Shown piece by piece: positions 45,357 to 57,557 of a stretch of 64,000 nt of DNA. Both the position numbers and the translations under genes were made by a program. The DNA lies in NCBI RefSeq assembly GCF_946463545.1, contig NZ_OX296583.1:372001-436000 (forward strand), given 5' to 3'. This stretch comes from Methanothermococcus thermolithotrophicus DSM 2095. GTDB taxonomy: Archaea; AGJL01; Methanococci; Methanococcales; Methanococcaceae. Below the pieces are notes generated by a model. The model made no database searches. It saw only the letters and a list, made by a program, of their open reading frames with translations, and was not told the origin of the DNA. Positions within the stretch are counted from its first letter, which is position 1, and every line of letters begins with the position of its first letter.

Positions 45357-45792
45357 TTAAGCTTTTTTTCTACATATTTATTATTTATTAAGGTTATTCG
45401 AAAAACATTAAATATTGTACGTATAAGTAACTTCAATTTAGTTTCTTTTTATTTGAAAATCTAATGATTTTTAAATCCCTGAAGACCTTCGGTTTTCGGT
45501 AGGTTATATTGTTCTTCATGTTGTAATTAGAATAGTGTGCAGTTTTAAACATAATGCCCATCTAAATTTAAAAACTTAATAAATCATTCAATACCCACCA
45601 CTATCGCAGTATAATAAAATTTTATATATTTGTATATCATACTATTTAGGAAATCGAGTAAATCTCTTTACGAACTTGTTGCTGACTCACAAAAATTTGA
45701 AGAATTTTTGTTGAGTCGAGGCAAAACCTTCGGAGTTTTGCAAACTCATATAATCACAAATTTTATATTTTATAAACATTAGAGGGTTTAAC
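45357..45792 (+). other. Histone-pyrH intergenic region with palindromes
   Basis: About 436 bases with no gene. A weak stem GAAGACC / GGTTTTC occurs near 45480. A stronger cluster lies at 45680-45745 and is listed separately. The pyrH ribosome binding site GAGGG is at its end. Confidence 0.5.
45680..45745 (+). repeat. Palindromic element, type B cluster (two hairpins)
   Basis: Stem ACAAAAATT / AATTTTTGT around TGAAG (45689-45711), flanked by GACTC and GAGTC that extend the pairing, then linker GAG and stem GCAAAAC / GTTTTGC (45721-45741) around CTTCGGA. Same design as the hairpin arrays at 51991 and in polB. Confidence 0.7.
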
Positions 45793-49896: not shown

Positions 49897-51576
49897 TTAA
49901 ATCATTTCTAATAATGCTTTTGCAGCTTCTCTTGTTGCTTCTCTGTCGCCACCTGCAACAACTAAAACATCGTTTCCGTTTGCTGCACCTTCAACAACAG
50001 CTAATGTTGCTGGGCTTGTGTTGTCAATTGCAACTTTACCAGCGTCTACTAATTCTTTTGTTAATGCGTTTACAACTGGTCCACCAACTAAGATTAAGTT
50101 TTTGTCAGCAGTATCTAATGATACTTCTGAGTCCAATTTTGCAATTGGTGCTGTTAATTTAACTGATTGTTGTGCATCTGCTAAGATGTCTTTTAATCTA
50201 ACTTCTGCGTTTAATACTGTTGCTTTTTGACCAATGTCTAATGTTACTTCTTTTGATTCGTCCATCAAGAATTTAACTTTTAATACGTCGTTCTTGTCTT
50301 CGTCGTCAAATACTAATTTGAGATAGTTTGCAATATCTACTTCGTCTCTATCTCCTAACTTCTTCTTCTTGTCTCCAACGTATTTTAATGCAATACCTAT
50401 TATATTAGCTTTATCAGACTCGGTAATATCTTTTTTGATTTCTAATTTATCACTATTGTTGAGTGCTGCATATGCTTCCCAGTCTGGTATGTATTCTTCA
50501 CCAAGTTCGAGAGCTTTGGTATCTTTTGTAATTAATACTTCAGCGTAACCTGTTGTTCCTGCAATATCTTCCCATGCATCGTTTACAACAACACCAACAT
50601 CTTTGTATGCGAGTTTTAACTGTGCTGAACTACTACCGCCAACTGTATCAGTTTTTTCTTTTACAACTTTTCCATCTTTTAATATTTGAACGTTAACACT
50701 GTATTCAGTTGATGTATCTCCACTCTTTAAAATACTTGCTATTTTAACTTCGTAGCCGTTTCCAACTGCGAATGTTTCTCCTTCTTTTAAAACACCATCT
50801 TTTGCTTCTTTACCGAGGTATATTATGTCATCTTCATCGTCGATTTTTACAACAGCGTACTCTTCACCAAGGAATGGTATTCTCATACCAGGTTTTAAGG
50901 TAACTGTGTTATTATCGTTGAATACATCTTCGTCATTTTTGTATGCAATTGATGCATATAATATTTGGTCTTCGTCTATTGATAATTTATCGCTGTCATA
51001 TACAATTCTTGTAAATACGACTTCTCCCGCATCGTCGTCGTTGCTGTACCAGTCTGATGGGTCAATGTCAGTTACTTTCAACATTGTGCTAACGTCACCT
51101 AATGATGTAGCATTAAAATCGGAGTCGTTCACATCTTGTATGCTACCGCTGGCTAATTCATCTGTAACCTTAAGTTTGTCACTACCATTAATAAATCCTT
51201 TTGCATAGTCTGAGTCTGCAGCAGCTACAAGGGCAATATCTTCATTAGTAGCATTTAAAGTAAAAATATTTACATCGTCAGATTCAGCTTTTGCTGAAAC
51301 TTTAACTACTGCACTTCCGTCTTCAACAACTCCTGTTTTGTATGCCATTGAACCTATTTTTGCAGCAACGTCAGCAGCTGAAACAACATCCATTACAGCA
51401 GCTCCTGAACCAACTACAATATCTACGTTTGGTGTTCCATCTTCTTTAATAGCATTTTTCATAAATCCTGCAACATCTCCTGATGTGGTTGCTGCCATTA
51501 CACCACTTGCTAATGCGGAAGCTACCATAGCCCCTCCAACTGCAATTGCACCAATTTTCTTTAAACTCATAGCCAT
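49897..51576 (-). CDS. S-layer protein, shorter tandem copy
   Basis: A 559-residue paralogue of the protein at 47803, transcribed first. The first about 100 and last about 400 residues are almost the same; the middle segment is about 100 residues shorter (TDELASGSIQDVNDSDF in place of the sequon-rich part). The gene follows GGGTGAATATAT. Only 96 bases separate the two genes, and no strong stem is seen there, so they may be cotranscribed. Near identity outside the middle suggests recent duplication or gene conversion. Confidence 0.93.
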   Translation of the reverse strand: MAMSLKKIGAIAVGGAMVASALASGVMAATTSGDVAGFMKNAIKEDGTPNVDIVVGSGAAVMDVVSAADVAAKIGSMAYKTGVVEDGSAVVKVSAKAESDDVNIFTLNATNEDIALVAAADSDYAKGFINGSDKLKVTDELASGSIQDVNDSDFNATSLGDVSTMLKVTDIDPSDWYSNDDDAGEVVFTRIVYDSDKLSIDEDQILYASIAYKNDEDVFNDNNTVTLKPGMRIPFLGEEYAVVKIDDEDDIIYLGKEAKDGVLKEGETFAVGNGYEVKIASILKSGDTSTEYSVNVQILKDGKVVKEKTDTVGGSSSAQLKLAYKDVGVVVNDAWEDIAGTTGYAEVLITKDTKALELGEEYIPDWEAYAALNNSDKLEIKKDITESDKANIIGIALKYVGDKKKKLGDRDEVDIANYLKLVFDDEDKNDVLKVKFLMDESKEVTLDIGQKATVLNAEVRLKDILADAQQSVKLTAPIAKLDSEVSLDTADKNLILVGGPVVNALTKELVDAGKVAIDNTSPATLAVVEGAANGNDVLVVAGGDREATREAAKALLEMI

Positions 51577-51783
51577 ATATATTCACCCTTTGATTTTTTA
51601 GTTTTTATATTCAACCTTATTTTGACTTTTGACTTTTTAATTCTTTCACGATAATACCTTCGACATTTTTGATATATATACCTTTCCATTTGAAACGGTT
51701 GTAACAATGGTTTCATGGCATTAAACCTTATATATTAATCTTAATCTAAGAAAGAACTATTTTAAGAAGATGTATTCAAAAAC

Positions 51784-51813
51784 AAAAAAGTTGCAAATAT
51801 TTGCAACTTTTTT
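51784..51813 (+). repeat. Perfect 30-base palindrome
   Basis: AAAAAAGTTGCAAAT followed by its exact complement ATTTGCAACTTTTTT. The core GTTGCAAA / TTTGCAAC shares GCAACTTTTTT with the insert in the tRNA-Met duplication and with 61299. With its T-run it could be a terminator, though no gene ends right before it. Confidence 0.65.
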
Positions 51814-51885
51814 AAATGGATTAAAATAAATATTTATAGATTTATATTGTCGGATATAACAAACTTAAATCTACTCCTAAAATAT

Positions 51886-51975
51886 ACCTACTCAACTTCG
51901 TTGAGTAGGTATCAGATTTGGGGATCGGAGTGAGCGAAGCGAACGAAGAGCTACAAAATCCCGAAGGGATTTTGT
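51886..51975 (-). repeat. Hairpin plus reversed type A palindromic element
   Basis: First, stem ACCTACTCAAC / GTTGAGTAGGT (51886-51910), 11 bp, perfect. Then, on the minus strand, a type A unit: stem ACAAAATCCC / GGGATTTTGT (51953-51975) and tail TAGCTCTTCGTTCGCTTCGC to ACTCCGATC. Tail differs from the 36166 copy at one or two bases, while the stem differs at several paired positions. Confidence 0.8.
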
Positions 51976-51990
51976 TCAATCCAACACCTC

Positions 51991-52096
51991 TCGACAAAAA
52001 CCTTTGGTTTTTGTGAATCGACAAATTTCCTTGAAATTTGTCTCGATCAGCGAATCCCTTGGATTCGCTTCGACAGCAAATCGAGATTTGCTTCGA
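51991..52096 (+). repeat. Array of four hairpins spaced by TCGA (type B)
   Basis: Stems: ACAAAAACC / GGTTTTTGT, ACAAATTTC / GAAATTTGT, AGCGAATCC / GGATTCGCT, AGCAAATC / GATTTGCT. Each is perfect; TCGA recurs at 51991, 52018, 52043, 52070 and 52093 between units, a spacing of 23-27 bases. The same architecture occurs inside polB at 55093-55203. Confidence 0.8.
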
Positions 52097-52259
52097 TTTA
52101 TAAAGGGGTTGGAGATATATATTAAAGTTTTTTTATCTAGTAATTCCAATGTTTTTTGCTGAGCTCTACCAACACATCAAATTTATATTTAAGTTATTCA
52201 ATTTATCGAGCTCCGTAGTATTACCAATTAATTGAAAATATTTAATCCTCATTTTATAT

Positions 52260-54032
52260 CTATTCATCCACGTAGTAGTATTCCCCAATTTCCTTTTGAT
52301 GCAAATCTCTTTGGCTTCCTTCCTTGTTAACCCTTGGTCTTCCAGTATCTGGGTCCCTTCTAAATGTGATATTCATTTCTTTTAAAAACTTATTTGCTCC
52401 ATCTCTTTTCTTCAGTGGGGCAGAACCTTCTCCCCAAATTCCTGGCTCACCACTAAATACTATAAATCTATCTGAAATGTAATCTTGGAATAATATATCG
52501 TGGTCAACTACAAGCATTGCAGCTTCTTTTTCGTCTGCCATTCTTCTGATAACTCTTGAAACACTTAAACGCTGTTCAACGTCTAAAAATGCCGAAGGTT
52601 CGTCTATAAGGTATATATCTGCATCCCTACTTAAGCATGCTGCAATGGCAACCCTTTGTAATTCCCCACCTGAGAGGTCTTTAATATTGAAATCCATTAT
52701 CTTTTCTAAACTTAATGGTTTAATTATTTCTGATTTATAGAATGAAGTGTTTATGTTGGTTATAGACCTCAGTAAATCCTCAACTGTACCATCATAATCA
52801 GAGACTATGTACTGTGGTTTGTATGAAACTTTTACATCATCCCCTGAAATACTTCCTTCATCAGGCTCAACAACTTTTGCAAGCAGTTTAACAAATGTAG
52901 TTTTACCTATACCATTTGGACCAAGGATACCAACAACTTCTCCTTTATATATTTCTCCACCTTCTACAGTTAATTTGAAATCTCCCAAGGTCTTTGAAAC
53001 TTTTGAATAGTTTAAAAGCAAAGGTCTGTTTGAATGGTCTATAGGTGGTCTCTTTTCAAATACGATTGGATTCTTTCTGAACCTTATGTTTTCTTCCTTT
53101 AAAAATCCATCCAAATACGTGTTTATACCTACCCTTGTTCCCCTTGGATGAGCTACAACCCCATAGGCTGAAGGGGTACCATATACAATATGAATATAAT
53201 CTGAAAGATAGTCTAAAACAATTAAATCGTGTTCAACTGCAACGACCTTTTTATTTTCACCGATATCTCTTATAACTTTTGCAACATTGAACCTCTGCTT
53301 AACATCAAGCCATGATGTAGGTTCGTCAAAGTAGTAAATGTCTCCTTCTTTTAAACATGCAGCTGCAATTGCCACTCTCTGGAGCTCACCACCACTAAGT
53401 TGATCGAGCTCTCTGTCCAACAGTTTATTCAATTCCAACTTAGTTACTATTTCATCAAAGAGTCCTTTTTCATCTACCTTTTTTAATAAATCTCCTACTT
53501 TTCCCTTAACAACCTTTGGAAGAGCATCGATATACTGTGGTTTGTGAACAGGTTTAATTCCTTTGTTTCTCAATTCTTCAAAGTAACTCTGCAATTCAGT
53601 ACCTGCAAAGTACTCCTTAACCTTATCGTAGGAAACCTCTTCATCCAACTTATTCAAGTTAGGTATCAATTCACCGCTTAAAATTTTCAATATTGTAGAT
53701 TTACCTACACCGTTAGGACCTAATATACCAACTACACCATCTCTAGGAGTTATCAAACCATAAAGCCTGAACCTATTTTTACCATAGGAATGTACTATTT
53801 TATCATCTGTTAGTTCCTCAGGTAATCCAATAATATTGATAGCTTCAAATGGACATCTTTTAGTACAGATACCACATCCACCACAGAGCTCTTCTGAGAT
53901 TATTGGTTTCCCAAGACTTTCATCCATAACTATAGTTTCTTCACCCATCCTAACTCCTGGACAGTACTTCATACATTCCAAAGAACACCTTCTTGGCTGA
54001 CATCTGTCATAATCTAAAATAGCCAATCTCAT
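52260..54032 (-). CDS. Ribosome recycling ATPase ABCE1/RLI
   Basis: A 590-residue ABC protein that splits ribosomes after termination. The N-terminal ferredoxin-like part has CQPRRCSLECMKYCPG and CGGCGICTKRCP for two [4Fe-4S] clusters. Two nucleotide domains follow, each with Walker A (GPNGVGKST, GPNGIGKTT), signature (LSGGELQRVAIAA twice) and Walker B (YYFDEPTSWLD, YLIDEPSAFLD). I start at MRLAILDYD (54032), which is the family start, with GGTGATGTTA upstream; the frame is open to 54050. Confidence 0.96.
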   Translation of the reverse strand: MRLAILDYDRCQPRRCSLECMKYCPGVRMGEETIVMDESLGKPIISEELCGGCGICTKRCPFEAINIIGLPEELTDDKIVHSYGKNRFRLYGLITPRDGVVGILGPNGVGKSTILKILSGELIPNLNKLDEEVSYDKVKEYFAGTELQSYFEELRNKGIKPVHKPQYIDALPKVVKGKVGDLLKKVDEKGLFDEIVTKLELNKLLDRELDQLSGGELQRVAIAAACLKEGDIYYFDEPTSWLDVKQRFNVAKVIRDIGENKKVVAVEHDLIVLDYLSDYIHIVYGTPSAYGVVAHPRGTRVGINTYLDGFLKEENIRFRKNPIVFEKRPPIDHSNRPLLLNYSKVSKTLGDFKLTVEGGEIYKGEVVGILGPNGIGKTTFVKLLAKVVEPDEGSISGDDVKVSYKPQYIVSDYDGTVEDLLRSITNINTSFYKSEIIKPLSLEKIMDFNIKDLSGGELQRVAIAACLSRDADIYLIDEPSAFLDVEQRLSVSRVIRRMADEKEAAMLVVDHDILFQDYISDRFIVFSGEPGIWGEGSAPLKKRDGANKFLKEMNITFRRDPDTGRPRVNKEGSQRDLHQKEIGEYYYVDE

Positions 54033-54089
54033 TAACATCACCTTAATCAATTTTACACATCATCCAAATGTAAAGTTAAAAAAATAAAA

Positions 54090-54596
54090 TTACTTTAATT
54101 CTTTTTGTTTAGCGTAGTTAACAAGCCCTCCTGCACTTAATATATCACACGCCAAACCTTTAGGAGCGCTACATTTGATTTTCTTAATTATTGTCCCTTC
54201 TGTATCTTCAATTTTTATTTCCTCGTTTTCTAAATCTATCTCGATAGTATATCCATCTTCAACGTGTTTTTTTATTCCTTTGCATACGATAGGGATTAAA
54301 CCTATATTTATACAGTTTCTATAAAATATCCTTGCAAAACTCTCAGCTACAATGGCCTTAATTCCACAGTACTTAATGGAAATTGGTGCCTGTTCTCTTG
54401 AGCTCCCACATCCAAAGTTCTCTCCAGCCACTATTAAATCTCCTTCATTAACTCTTTTTGGGAAGTCTTCATCAATCCCTGCCATGCAATGTGAGGCGAG
54501 CTCATAAACATCTGTAGTTTTTAAATAAGCTCCTGGAATTATTGCATCTGTATCAACGTCATCTCCAAAAATATGAACCTTACCTTTTAATTTCAT
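54090..54596 (-). CDS. hacB: Homoaconitase small subunit (HacB/LeuD family)
   Basis: A 168-residue swivel-domain subunit of a (homo)aconitase or isopropylmalate isomerase. Motifs: FGDDVDTDAIIPG (10-22), the specificity loop YLKT (24-27), GENFGCGSSREQAP (58-71) and FARIFYRNCINIGL. The large subunit is likely the product of 11024. Position 26 is Lys, where MJ1271 homoaconitase has Arg (YLRT, from memory); an engineered R26K change in that enzyme gave relaxed isopropylmalate activity. Thus the subunit could be homoaconitase, LeuD, or dual. GGTGATAAT precedes ATG. Confidence 0.78.
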   Translation of the reverse strand: MKLKGKVHIFGDDVDTDAIIPGAYLKTTDVYELASHCMAGIDEDFPKRVNEGDLIVAGENFGCGSSREQAPISIKYCGIKAIVAESFARIFYRNCINIGLIPIVCKGIKKHVEDGYTIEIDLENEEIKIEDTEGTIIKKIKCSAPKGLACDILSAGGLVNYAKQKELK

Positions 54597-54609
54597 ATTA
54601 TCACCTTTT

Positions 54610-54700
54610 ACGAGCGAAGCGAGTAAATTAGCAAATCTATGATTTGTGTATTTTACGAACGAAGTGAGTAAATCAGCAAATCCGAAGGATTTGTGCTTTT
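54610..54700 (+). repeat. Tandem 45-base repeat with hairpins
   Basis: Unit 1 starts ACGAGCGAAGCGAGTAAAT at 54610 and unit 2 ACGAACGAAGTGAGTAAAT at 54655. Each is followed by a stem: GCAAATC-TAT-GATTTGTG and AGCAAATCC-GAA-GGATTTGTG. The unit is a rearranged type A element (tail first, stem second). Located just upstream of hacB. Confidence 0.75.
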
Positions 54701-54762
54701 AAAAATATTAAACGAAAAACCGTTAATCCTATGCTATAATGTTTCGTCTATGCCATAAATAT

Positions 54763-54782
54763 ATGAAAACCGAAGTTTTCAT
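54763..54782 (+). repeat. Short hairpin ATGAAAAC-CGAA-GTTTTCAT
   Basis: Perfect 8-bp stem with a CGAA tetraloop, of the same GAA/TTC loop type as the other elements. In the hacB-polB gap. Confidence 0.6.
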
Positions 54783-55001
54783 AAGTTTCAGTTACTTGAT
54801 AAAATAGGCCAATAACAAAATATAAAACGATATAGCTTAAATATTTCTTGTAATTTTTTGATGGGATGAACGTATTTCTTATTAGAATAATATATAATAA
54901 TAAGTGACATATAAATAATCAATACATGTTGAAAAGCATATAATTTAAATATATTGCAACTTTTGCCAATATATAAATTTAATCCTTCATTTGGTGTTAT
55001 C

Positions 55002-57557
55002 ATGGATGTCCTTATAGACCTAAACTACAGCTCAGAAGAAAAATGCCTGTATTTGTACTTAATCAATGAAATGTGCCGACCCCTACAACACATCGAAGCA
55101 AATCCGAAGGATTTGCTGTCGAAGCGAATTTCAAAAAATTCGCTGACTCACGAAACCGAAGGTTTCGTCGAGACTTACGAAAACTCGAAGAGTTTTCGTC
55201 AAGTTTTAAAAGAAAAAGATTTTAAACCGTATTTTTATGTTGATGCAGATATAAATGATATAAAAAGTTTTTTAAAAGAAAAAGAACTTTCTGATCTTGT
55301 GGAAAACATAGAAATTGTAAAAAAAACTATTTTAAAGGATATTAACGACAGTATGGATAGGATAGTTGAAAAAGAATTGTGCAAAATAATCGTAAAATAT
55401 CCAAAGGATGTTCCAAAACTTAGGGCCCTGAAGGAGATTGGGGTAATATACGAACACGACATACCATTTACAAAGCGATACCTAATTGACAGCGGCATAG
55501 TTCCAACTGCCTACTTTGATTTTAAAAATAAAAAAATAATTAATAACAATATACCAAAGTTAAAGGCAATTTCCTTTGACATGGAAGTTTATTGTGAAGG
55601 GGGAGAACCTGACCCAGAGAAGGATCCAATTTTAATGACTAGTTTTTGTTCAGATTTGAGAAAAGTTATAACATATAAATCCTTTGAACATGAATACGTC
55701 GAGCTCGTAGAGGATGAAAAGGAACTAATTAAAAAAACAATTGAAACACTTAGAAACTACGATATAATATACACATACAATGGGGATAACTTTGATTTTC
55801 CATATTTAAAGAAAAGGGCAAAATACCTTGGAATAGATGTTAATTTGGGAAAGTCCCCTTCAAATCAAGTTTGCGAAGAAAATAAACAACTTTATTATTC
55901 AATTAACAACGAGGACATAAAGATTTCAAAGGGTGGGATGCACTTAAGGAGCTACATACCAGGAAGGGTTCATATCGATCTATATCCCATCGCAAGGAAA
56001 CTTTTGAACTTAGCTAGATACAAGTTGGAGGATGTGACTTTCGAGCTCTTTGGAATAAATAAGTTGGAAGTTGGGCATTCAAATATAGCCCGCATCTGGA
56101 ATGAAAAAAATGAAACCTTGGTGGAATACTCCTTTCAAGATGCATATTATACCTATAAAATTGGAGAATATTTCTTACCTTTAGAAATAATGTTTTCAAG
56201 AATCGTAAATCAGACGTTATTTGAAATAAGCAGAATGAGCAGTAGTCAGATGGTGGAATATCTTCTGTTAAAAAACTCATTTAAAAACAATTTTATAGCA
56301 CCAAATAAACCTTCAAACAGAGAATATCTAAGAAGGATAAGAGAAAGGTATGAAGGGGGCTATGTAAAGGAACCTATAAAGGGGATTCACGACAGCATAG
56401 TTTCAATGGATTTCAAAAGCCTTTACCCGTCCATAATAATTAGCCATAACATAAGTCCAGATACCATCGATTGTAAGTGCTGCGAACATGAAGCTGAAAA
56501 AATACTTGGTCATTGGTTTTGTAAAAAAAGAATAGGTATTATTCCAAAAACATTAAAGGATTTAATTGAAAGGAGAAAGAAAATTAAAACGATTTTGAAA
56601 TCCAAGCAGGATAAAATTTTATTGGATACGGAAAATCCGAAGGTTATGGATGAGGATACAAAATCTACCGACGAGTATTATGACCTACTGAATTACGAAC
56701 AGAAATCTTTGAAGGTTTTGGCAAACTCAATCTATGGTTACTTAGCCTTTCCAAGGGCAAGATGGTACTCAAAGGAATGTGCAGAAGTCATAACATATCT
56801 TGGAAGAAACTACATTCAAAAAACCATGGATGAAGCTGAAAAATTTGGGTTTGAAGTAATATACGCAGACACCGATGGATTTTATTCAAAATTAAAAAAT
56901 AACAATACGACCAAAAATAAAGATGAATTGATAAATAAAACCTATGAATTTTTAGAAATTATAAACCAAAAACTCCCGGAAAGTATGGAATTAGAGTTTG
57001 AGGGGTACTATAAAAGAGGCATATTTATCACAAAAAAAAGGTATGCATTAATTGATGAAAGGGATAAAATAACAATTAAAGGTTTGGAATTCGTTAGAAG
57101 GGATTGGTCTAACATTGCTAAAAAAACCCAAAGAAGAGTTTTAGAAACCTTACTCAAAGAAGGAGATGTTGAAAAAGCCAAAAAGGTAATTCAGGACGTT
57201 ATAAACGATTTAAGAAATGGAAAAGTAGATAAAAAAGACTTGATAATATACACGCAGCTGACAAAGAATATAGACGAGTATAAAACCACATCACCACATG
57301 TTGAAGTTGCCAAAAAAATAATTAAAAAGAAAGGCAGGCTAAAAGTCGGAGACGTTCTAGAGTATATAATAACGAGTGGAAATAAATCAATAAGTGAAAG
57401 GGCTTTTTCACCTGAAGATGCAAAGGACTACGATATAAACTATTACATTGAAAATCAAGTTTTACCGCCTGTATTGAGAATCATGGAATCCTTAGGCATA
57501 TCAAAAGATGAACTTAAAAACTTGGATAAACAGGTGACTTTGGATAGATTCTTTTAA
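55002..57557 (+). CDS. polB: DNA polymerase family B
   Basis: An 851-residue replicative/repair polymerase without inteins. The exonuclease site begins AISFDMEVY (about 189-197) with [13 protein letters not shown]; polymerase motifs are [26 protein letters not shown] and [10 protein letters not shown] start at ATG 55002 (GGTGTTATC upstream). Odd: residues about 30-67 are encoded by a four-hairpin palindromic array (55093-55203). In the M. jannaschii enzyme, as I recall, the flanking sequences LIN and [11 protein letters not shown] are nearly adjacent, so this is an insertion. The frame is kept. Confidence 0.93.
55093..55203 (+). repeat. Palindromic array inserted in frame within polB
   Basis: Four perfect stems: AGCAAATCC / GGATTTGCT (55097-55117), AGCGAATTT / AAATTCGCT (55123-55144), ACGAAACC / GGTTTCGT (55150-55168), ACGAAAACTC / GAGTTTTCGT (55177-55199), with linkers GTCGA, GACTC and CGAGACTT. 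Loops are GAA or CAAA. About 111 bases, 37 codons, no stop. Same family as 51991-52096. Confidence 0.85.

Follow-up and report, generated by a model that had tools for sequence, protein, structure and literature searches.

The polB locus

The window analysed in this study, a 64-kb stretch of the genome of the methanogenic archaeon Methanothermococcus thermolithotrophicus DSM 2095, carries a complete family B DNA polymerase gene (polB; Table 1). The encoded protein, PolB, has the Pfam domain DNA_pol_B (E-value: 3.6e-73) plus an exonuclease domain. Four hairpins lie in a row within its reading frame, as a sequence-only reading of this DNA had described; all four are perfect and the ORF stays open across them (55097-55199). 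That reading took them for a simple array, and in this respect it needs correction: when innermost units are removed stepwise (peeling), the segment resolves into two units of two hairpins each, one nested in the other. Perfect inverted repeats (arm of 8 or more) number 40 in the window, whereas five first-order Markov shuffles gave 15-21. Rows of at least four perfect hairpins occur in the window only in polB and at 51953-52092.

The insertion is missing from the PolB homologues of all 26 relatives, among which no alignable conserved segment was found. The flanking segments abut directly in 25 of the 26, much as the sequence-only reading had stated for the M. jannaschii polymerase, while G008 has a short unrelated segment at this position. 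Excision of exactly 111 nt brings back the conserved I-L-K junction and matches the ILK(D/E)..FKPYFYV of the relatives. Just before the element, a further 21 nt that the relatives lack lie outside the recognised unit; after removal of the element they are flanked by AAATGTG...CACATTT, and they are possibly an earlier small insertion. In the AlphaFold2 model of PolB, residues 23-65 have pLDDT values below 50 and lie between strands 15-22 and 66-71, which suggests that the insert is placed at a beta-hairpin turn of the N-terminal domain.

Table 1. Coordinates of the polB insertion and of related features (window positions unless another sequence is named; CM, covariance model)
Feature	Position	Strand	Remarks
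Family B DNA polymerase gene (PolB)	55002..57557	+	851 aa; intact save insertion; ORF from ATG 55002; alignment basis 18 relatives
21 nt, codons MCRPLQH	55071..55091	+	absent in relatives; outside recognised unit (alignment)
111-nt in-frame insertion	55093..55203	- (element sense)	net 37 codons; peeling analysis
Outer 57-nt two-hairpin unit, polB	55093-55118 + 55173-55203	-	hosts nested 54-nt unit
Hairpin B, outer polB unit	55097..55117	-	9-bp arms, loop GAA
Inner 54-nt unit, polB	55119..55172	-	within A-B linker of outer unit, AAGT^CAGC; CM 1.3e-17
Hairpin B, inner polB unit	55123..55144	-	9-bp arms, loop CAAA
Hairpin A, inner polB unit	55150..55168	-	8-bp arms, loop GAA
Hairpin A, outer polB unit	55177..55199	-	10-bp arms, loop GAA
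Decayed family unit	45654..45715	-	CM match G000:417654-417715, E-value 2.1e-6
Hairpin ATACCTACTCAAC-TTC-GTTGAGTAGGTAT, another repeat	51884..51912	+	copy elsewhere is target of strain-specific unit
Intergenic unit	51990..52046	+	CM match G000:423990-424046, E-value 6.5e-16; then two B-type hairpins to 52092
Hel308 gene compared	L117 1205-4966 and L124 1138-4935		

A family of twin-hairpin units

A DNA search of this genome (G000) with the polB segment returned about 75 matching stretches, with E-values of 1e-16 for the best matches at foreign sites. The stems were thus found far outside PolB, which contradicts their explanation by conserved protein sequence. A covariance model of the two-hairpin unit (R1) identified 47 strong units in 41 clusters in G000 and one to about ten units in each of G003, G004, G009, G015 and G028. 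No strong units were found in the remaining Methanococcales searched, and a phylum-wide search covering 36 genomes returned nearly the same set. The non-coding row at 51994-52092, in which the same architecture had been noticed earlier, belongs to this family by the covariance model. Nearly all copies in this genome are intergenic.

The unit is 51-59 bp long and has approximately the form CTYG-[hairpin A]-RAGT-CAGC-[hairpin B]-TCGA. Peeling recovered at least 48 units in the genome, 14 of which hold exact nested units. The nesting position is almost always the A-B linker, GAGT^CAGC (sequence of the empty linker: GAGTCAGC), and exact nesting of this kind is a record of insertion order. Other hairpin families (AGTTGAATAATC, CCGCAAC and ATACCTACTCAAC) also recur throughout the genome and host the units. 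No match to the units was found in a plasmid search. Pattern matches in viral contigs proved to be ordinary sequence without the hairpins, and a CRISPR reading was ruled out by the mutual difference of the hairpins and by the nesting of the units.

Units in other protein-coding genes

Copies of the family lie within several unrelated genes. The leucyl-tRNA synthetase (LeuRS) gene of G015 contains an in-frame unit of exactly 57 nt (19 codons) that is missing from 22 homologues, one of them 89% identical. This gene must be essential in that relative. An O-methyltransferase has an in-frame unit at the same site in G028 and G003, missing from 17 homologues. Rad50 of this genome carries an in-frame unit within its coiled coil, where the alignment is less exact, and the endonuclease portion of an intein in Hel308 contains in-frame nested units in both this genome and G004. 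The sequence-only reading had called polB an essential gene; this is at odds with M. maripaludis, in which PolD is the sole essential polymerase and PolB is dispensable (PMC4065339). The tolerance of an insertion in polB is therefore less striking than that in LeuRS.

Three further observations concern these host genes. Over 3,744 bp, G000 and G004 share 98.3% identity in the Hel308 gene, including the intein and the nested element, against 73% in the flanks; judging by this difference, the gene apparently moved recently between genera. An O-methyltransferase fragment with three stop codons lies at G000 C1:1575625-1576104 (L223); an intact copy, at 1570624, is approximately 4 kb away. G009 has seven copies of one transposase-like ORF (L253-L259), each with the same in-frame 57-nt unit; this ORF has no Pfam match and may be truncated, so it is uninformative on protein function.

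The clearly bounded coding insertions measure 57+54, 54+51, 51, 57, 57 and 57 nt, and all are stop-free multiples of three. A GH57 copy (56 nt, in a variable region) was omitted from this set because its bounds are not clean. By unit, the length is a multiple of three in 8/8 clearly bounded coding copies versus 21/43 non-coding ones, a count not taken as proof because, in this genome, coding copies were located via their open frames, so that their in-frame state is partly a selection effect. Units are read in polB antisense to the element, in LeuRS and the methyltransferase in the sense direction, and in the inner Hel308 unit in another sense frame. As both strands and several frames are used, no particular peptide is favoured; among the 43 non-coding units, each of the six frames is open at a similar rate (in 19-32 units).

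These data bear on two other explanations of the polB segment. It could be an old protein-level feature of PolB in this lineage whose codons are palindromic by chance. The open frame is the one observation in favour of this view. Relatives lack the segment, and units of the same DNA lie outside coding sequence as well as in unrelated genes, where they use several frames and either strand, so that the probability of this view is negligible. Alternatively, the segment could be removed by archaeal BHB-type splicing of the mRNA or by ribosome bypass, leaving the protein unaffected. The insertion is predicted to form strong mRNA hairpins (-49.5 kcal/mol at 37°C, -18.7 kcal/mol at 65°C), and palindromic byp elements are bypassed in Magnusiomyces mitochondria, as mentioned in PMC6649704. 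Against removal, stop-free lengths in multiples of three would be needless in spliced or bypassed segments, an argument that is partly circular. We consider removal very unlikely; the polB segment is probably translated and harmless.

Presence and absence between strains

A scan of named genomes identified one contig of a second strain in a metagenome bin filed as Bacteroidales (bin G061; L231/L250, JASGMZ010000055.1; contigs C36, C91 and C103). Several of its contigs are 99.9-100% identical to this archaeon; judged by this identity, they are from a misbinned conspecific and contaminate the Bacteroidales bin. C36 matches this genome without gaps at 99.97% identity over 13,857 bp (4 mismatches). 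At its end, a 57-bp unit lies inside a hairpin, ATACCTA[unit]CTCAAC, at a site that is empty in this genome. Over 3,061 bp, C103 and this genome are 99.94% identical; the array of C103 is set apart solely by a 57-bp unit, which sits at GTGAG^TCAGC between flanks that are the same in both. As the sequence matches to the left and right of its unit, the C103 insertion is a stronger case than C36.

The filled sites in conspecific contigs and the exact empty sites in this genome indicate that the family moved recently, with some remaining risk of assembly error, as these are metagenomic contigs with the arrays no more than 250 bp from contig ends. Additional units on C91 and at the extreme end of C36 were not relied upon, since assembly error is least excluded there. 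Among these data there is no strain in which the polB site is empty, and polB is absent from the conspecific contigs. At the four sites dissected, the flank ambiguity is 1 nt (C103), 4 nt (C36), 1 nt (LeuRS) and 1 nt (inner polB unit), and hence there is no consistent target duplication. The earlier proposal that a spreading palindromic element entered the gene in frame agrees with these results: the insertion is absent in 26 relatives, and its family is repeated genome-wide, occurs in other genes and is polymorphic between strains elsewhere.

Two other differences were seen between the strains. A different two-hairpin element, a 47-bp insertion with the structure ATCACCAAC-GAA-GTTGGTGA-gct-ACGAAACTC-GAA-GAGTTTCGT and AATC on both sides, is also polymorphic (L250 1-130, G000 C1:1009487 region). 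Past 13.9 kb (L249 14300-14720 versus L250 13950-14300), the strains are separated by a 77-bp gap in a repeated coding stretch, which is either a real deletion or an assembly collapse.

Perfect arms and inverted loops

Among 96 hairpins, only 7/862 base pairs are mismatched and 90 hairpins are perfect, despite divergence of 14-17% between copies with arms of equal length. Loops occur in both orientations (GAA/TTC, 22:27; AAA/TTT, 18:14). At the O-methyltransferase site both loops are inverted between G028 and G003, and the loop of the C36 target hairpin is GAA in the contig and TTC in this genome. Near-perfect arms in spite of divergence between copies, the occurrence of both loop orientations and the loop inversion at one site would all be expected if one arm is copied from the other by template switching, a process that has been proposed in general terms to account for the perfection of coding palindromes (PMC6649704).

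In an alignment of 20 two-hairpin units, 98% of cells are paired, and changes on both sides were found in 11/20 pairs, giving a covariation score reached by 0/500 shuffles and lost when the partner is shifted by one base. Helix A has a conserved bulged base, and the pairs flanking this bulge covary on either side. Such compensatory changes, the conserved bulge and the mostly intergenic position of the copies could reflect selection for a functional RNA or DNA structure (a regulatory RNA, termination or nucleoid binding), with the genic copies being accidental. Selection on structure does not predict loops that invert freely, however, nested copies alter the structure, and the copies in polB are just as perfect. 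The family is absent from most relatives, and a search of 51500-56000 against Rfam gave nothing above the gathering score. As arm-to-arm copying accounts for perfection without selection, we regard a structural function of the whole family as improbable, but selection on structure is possible for the intergenic copies.

Comparison with known palindromic elements

The sequence-only reading had likened the element to Rickettsia palindromic elements (RPE; Ogata et al. 2000, 2002). These are described as small palindromic repeats of coding and non-coding DNA that occur in-frame in genes of unrelated function, some of them concerned with replication, repair or tRNA (PMC10969869, PMC2229807). The archaeal units share the dispersal of a palindromic repeat through coding and non-coding DNA and its in-frame presence in unrelated genes, and to this extent the likeness stands. 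It fails for the conserved peptide of each RPE family: the archaeal units have no conserved peptide or single frame. They also differ from RPE in being archaeal, in comprising two adjacent hairpins (approximately 55 bp in all) where RPE form a single long stem of 105-150 bp, in nesting within themselves and in keeping their arms perfect, whereas RPE arms are said to decay (PMC6649704).

In architecture, and in architecture only, the units resemble the double-hairpin elements (DHE) of fungal mitochondria (Allomyces, Schizosaccharomyces), which are units of two adjacent hairpins (PMC10085805). DHE are described as potentially mobile and patchily distributed, with suspected interspecies transfer, traits in which the archaeal units are like them. 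Unlike these, DHE are organellar, GC-rich and mostly found in intergenic regions or rRNA genes, while the present units lie in a chromosome of 33% GC and include in-frame protein-coding copies. Yeast mitochondrial GC clusters (GC42) are likewise short palindromes that are polymorphic between strains and merge into one another, but they are GC-rich and have an AG-type target duplication (PMC4478555); here there is none that is consistent, and the nesting site is fixed. The coding palindromes of nematomorph mitochondria are also perfect, which is ascribed to template switching, and within protein-coding genes, but are long and formed in place (PMC6649704), unlike the dispersed, mobile archaeal units. 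By analogy, the mode of action may be said to be like that of RPE and DHE.

Bacterial REP sequences (GTAG or CGTC tags) are short hairpins of many copies that occur inside DNA repair genes (PMC3733652). A miniature element, REP/RAYT-like or derived from IS200/IS605 and mobilised by a tyrosine (HUH) transposase, would fit the bulged hairpins, the small size, the lack of a consistent target duplication and the copies in repair genes. The Y1 transposase domain of RAYT (PF01797) has matches in G003, G004, G015, G027 and G029, but none in the carriers G000, G009 and G028. Because CGTC REPs have been reported without a dedicated transposase, this absence counts against GTAG REPs only. The units share neither tag, however: they start with CTYG and end with TCGA, and CGTC is found within units with ACG-type stems and in none of the ACA-type. 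The REPs of that study are, in addition, from bacterial phyla (PMC3733652). An origin of this type is in our judgement rather unlikely. Neither the terminal inverted repeats nor the target-site duplication of a MITE were found, as the unit ends have only TCGA in common. With at least one tested feature lacking for each of RPE, REP and MITE, the family is not assigned to any of them.

Proposed model

We propose that the hairpins are very probably those of a mobile, non-autonomous twin-hairpin element, one copy of which entered polB and was itself entered by another, and that the resulting insertion of 37 residues is tolerated. The model is as follows. A unit would insert seamlessly, and its target would often be the linker that joins the two hairpins of a unit already in place, so that nested arrays arise. 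At polB the outer unit would have inserted first and the second unit then into it. Because 57 and 54 are both multiples of three and the frame is open, selection appears to have tolerated the additional residues at the surface turn of the N-terminal domain. The hairpins are presumably copied while single-stranded or extruded, and template switching would keep the arms perfect and flip the loops. Insertion would be carried out by a putative host or trans-acting enzyme; no match to PF01797 was found in G000.

The family may represent a new class, a reading that we favour by a modest degree: a self-nesting, twin-hairpin element of archaeal chromosomes, 51-59 bp in length and itself non-coding, which lacks a consistent target duplication, prefers its own linker as a target, is copied via an intermediate (hairpin or cruciform) in which arms are homogenised and loops inverted, and can enlarge conserved proteins by 17-37 residues while leaving them functional. 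In keeping with the earlier remark that no archaeal case was known, none was found in a search that covered 5.39 million open-access papers but not most subscription journals.

These units extend gene-embedded mobile palindromes, known from bacteria and mitochondria, to the archaea. The empty and filled sites in near-identical strains make the movement of a palindrome without a transposase testable in an archaeon that can be grown, and the copies in PolB, Rad50, LeuRS and the intein are natural experiments on the extra sequence that these proteins tolerate.
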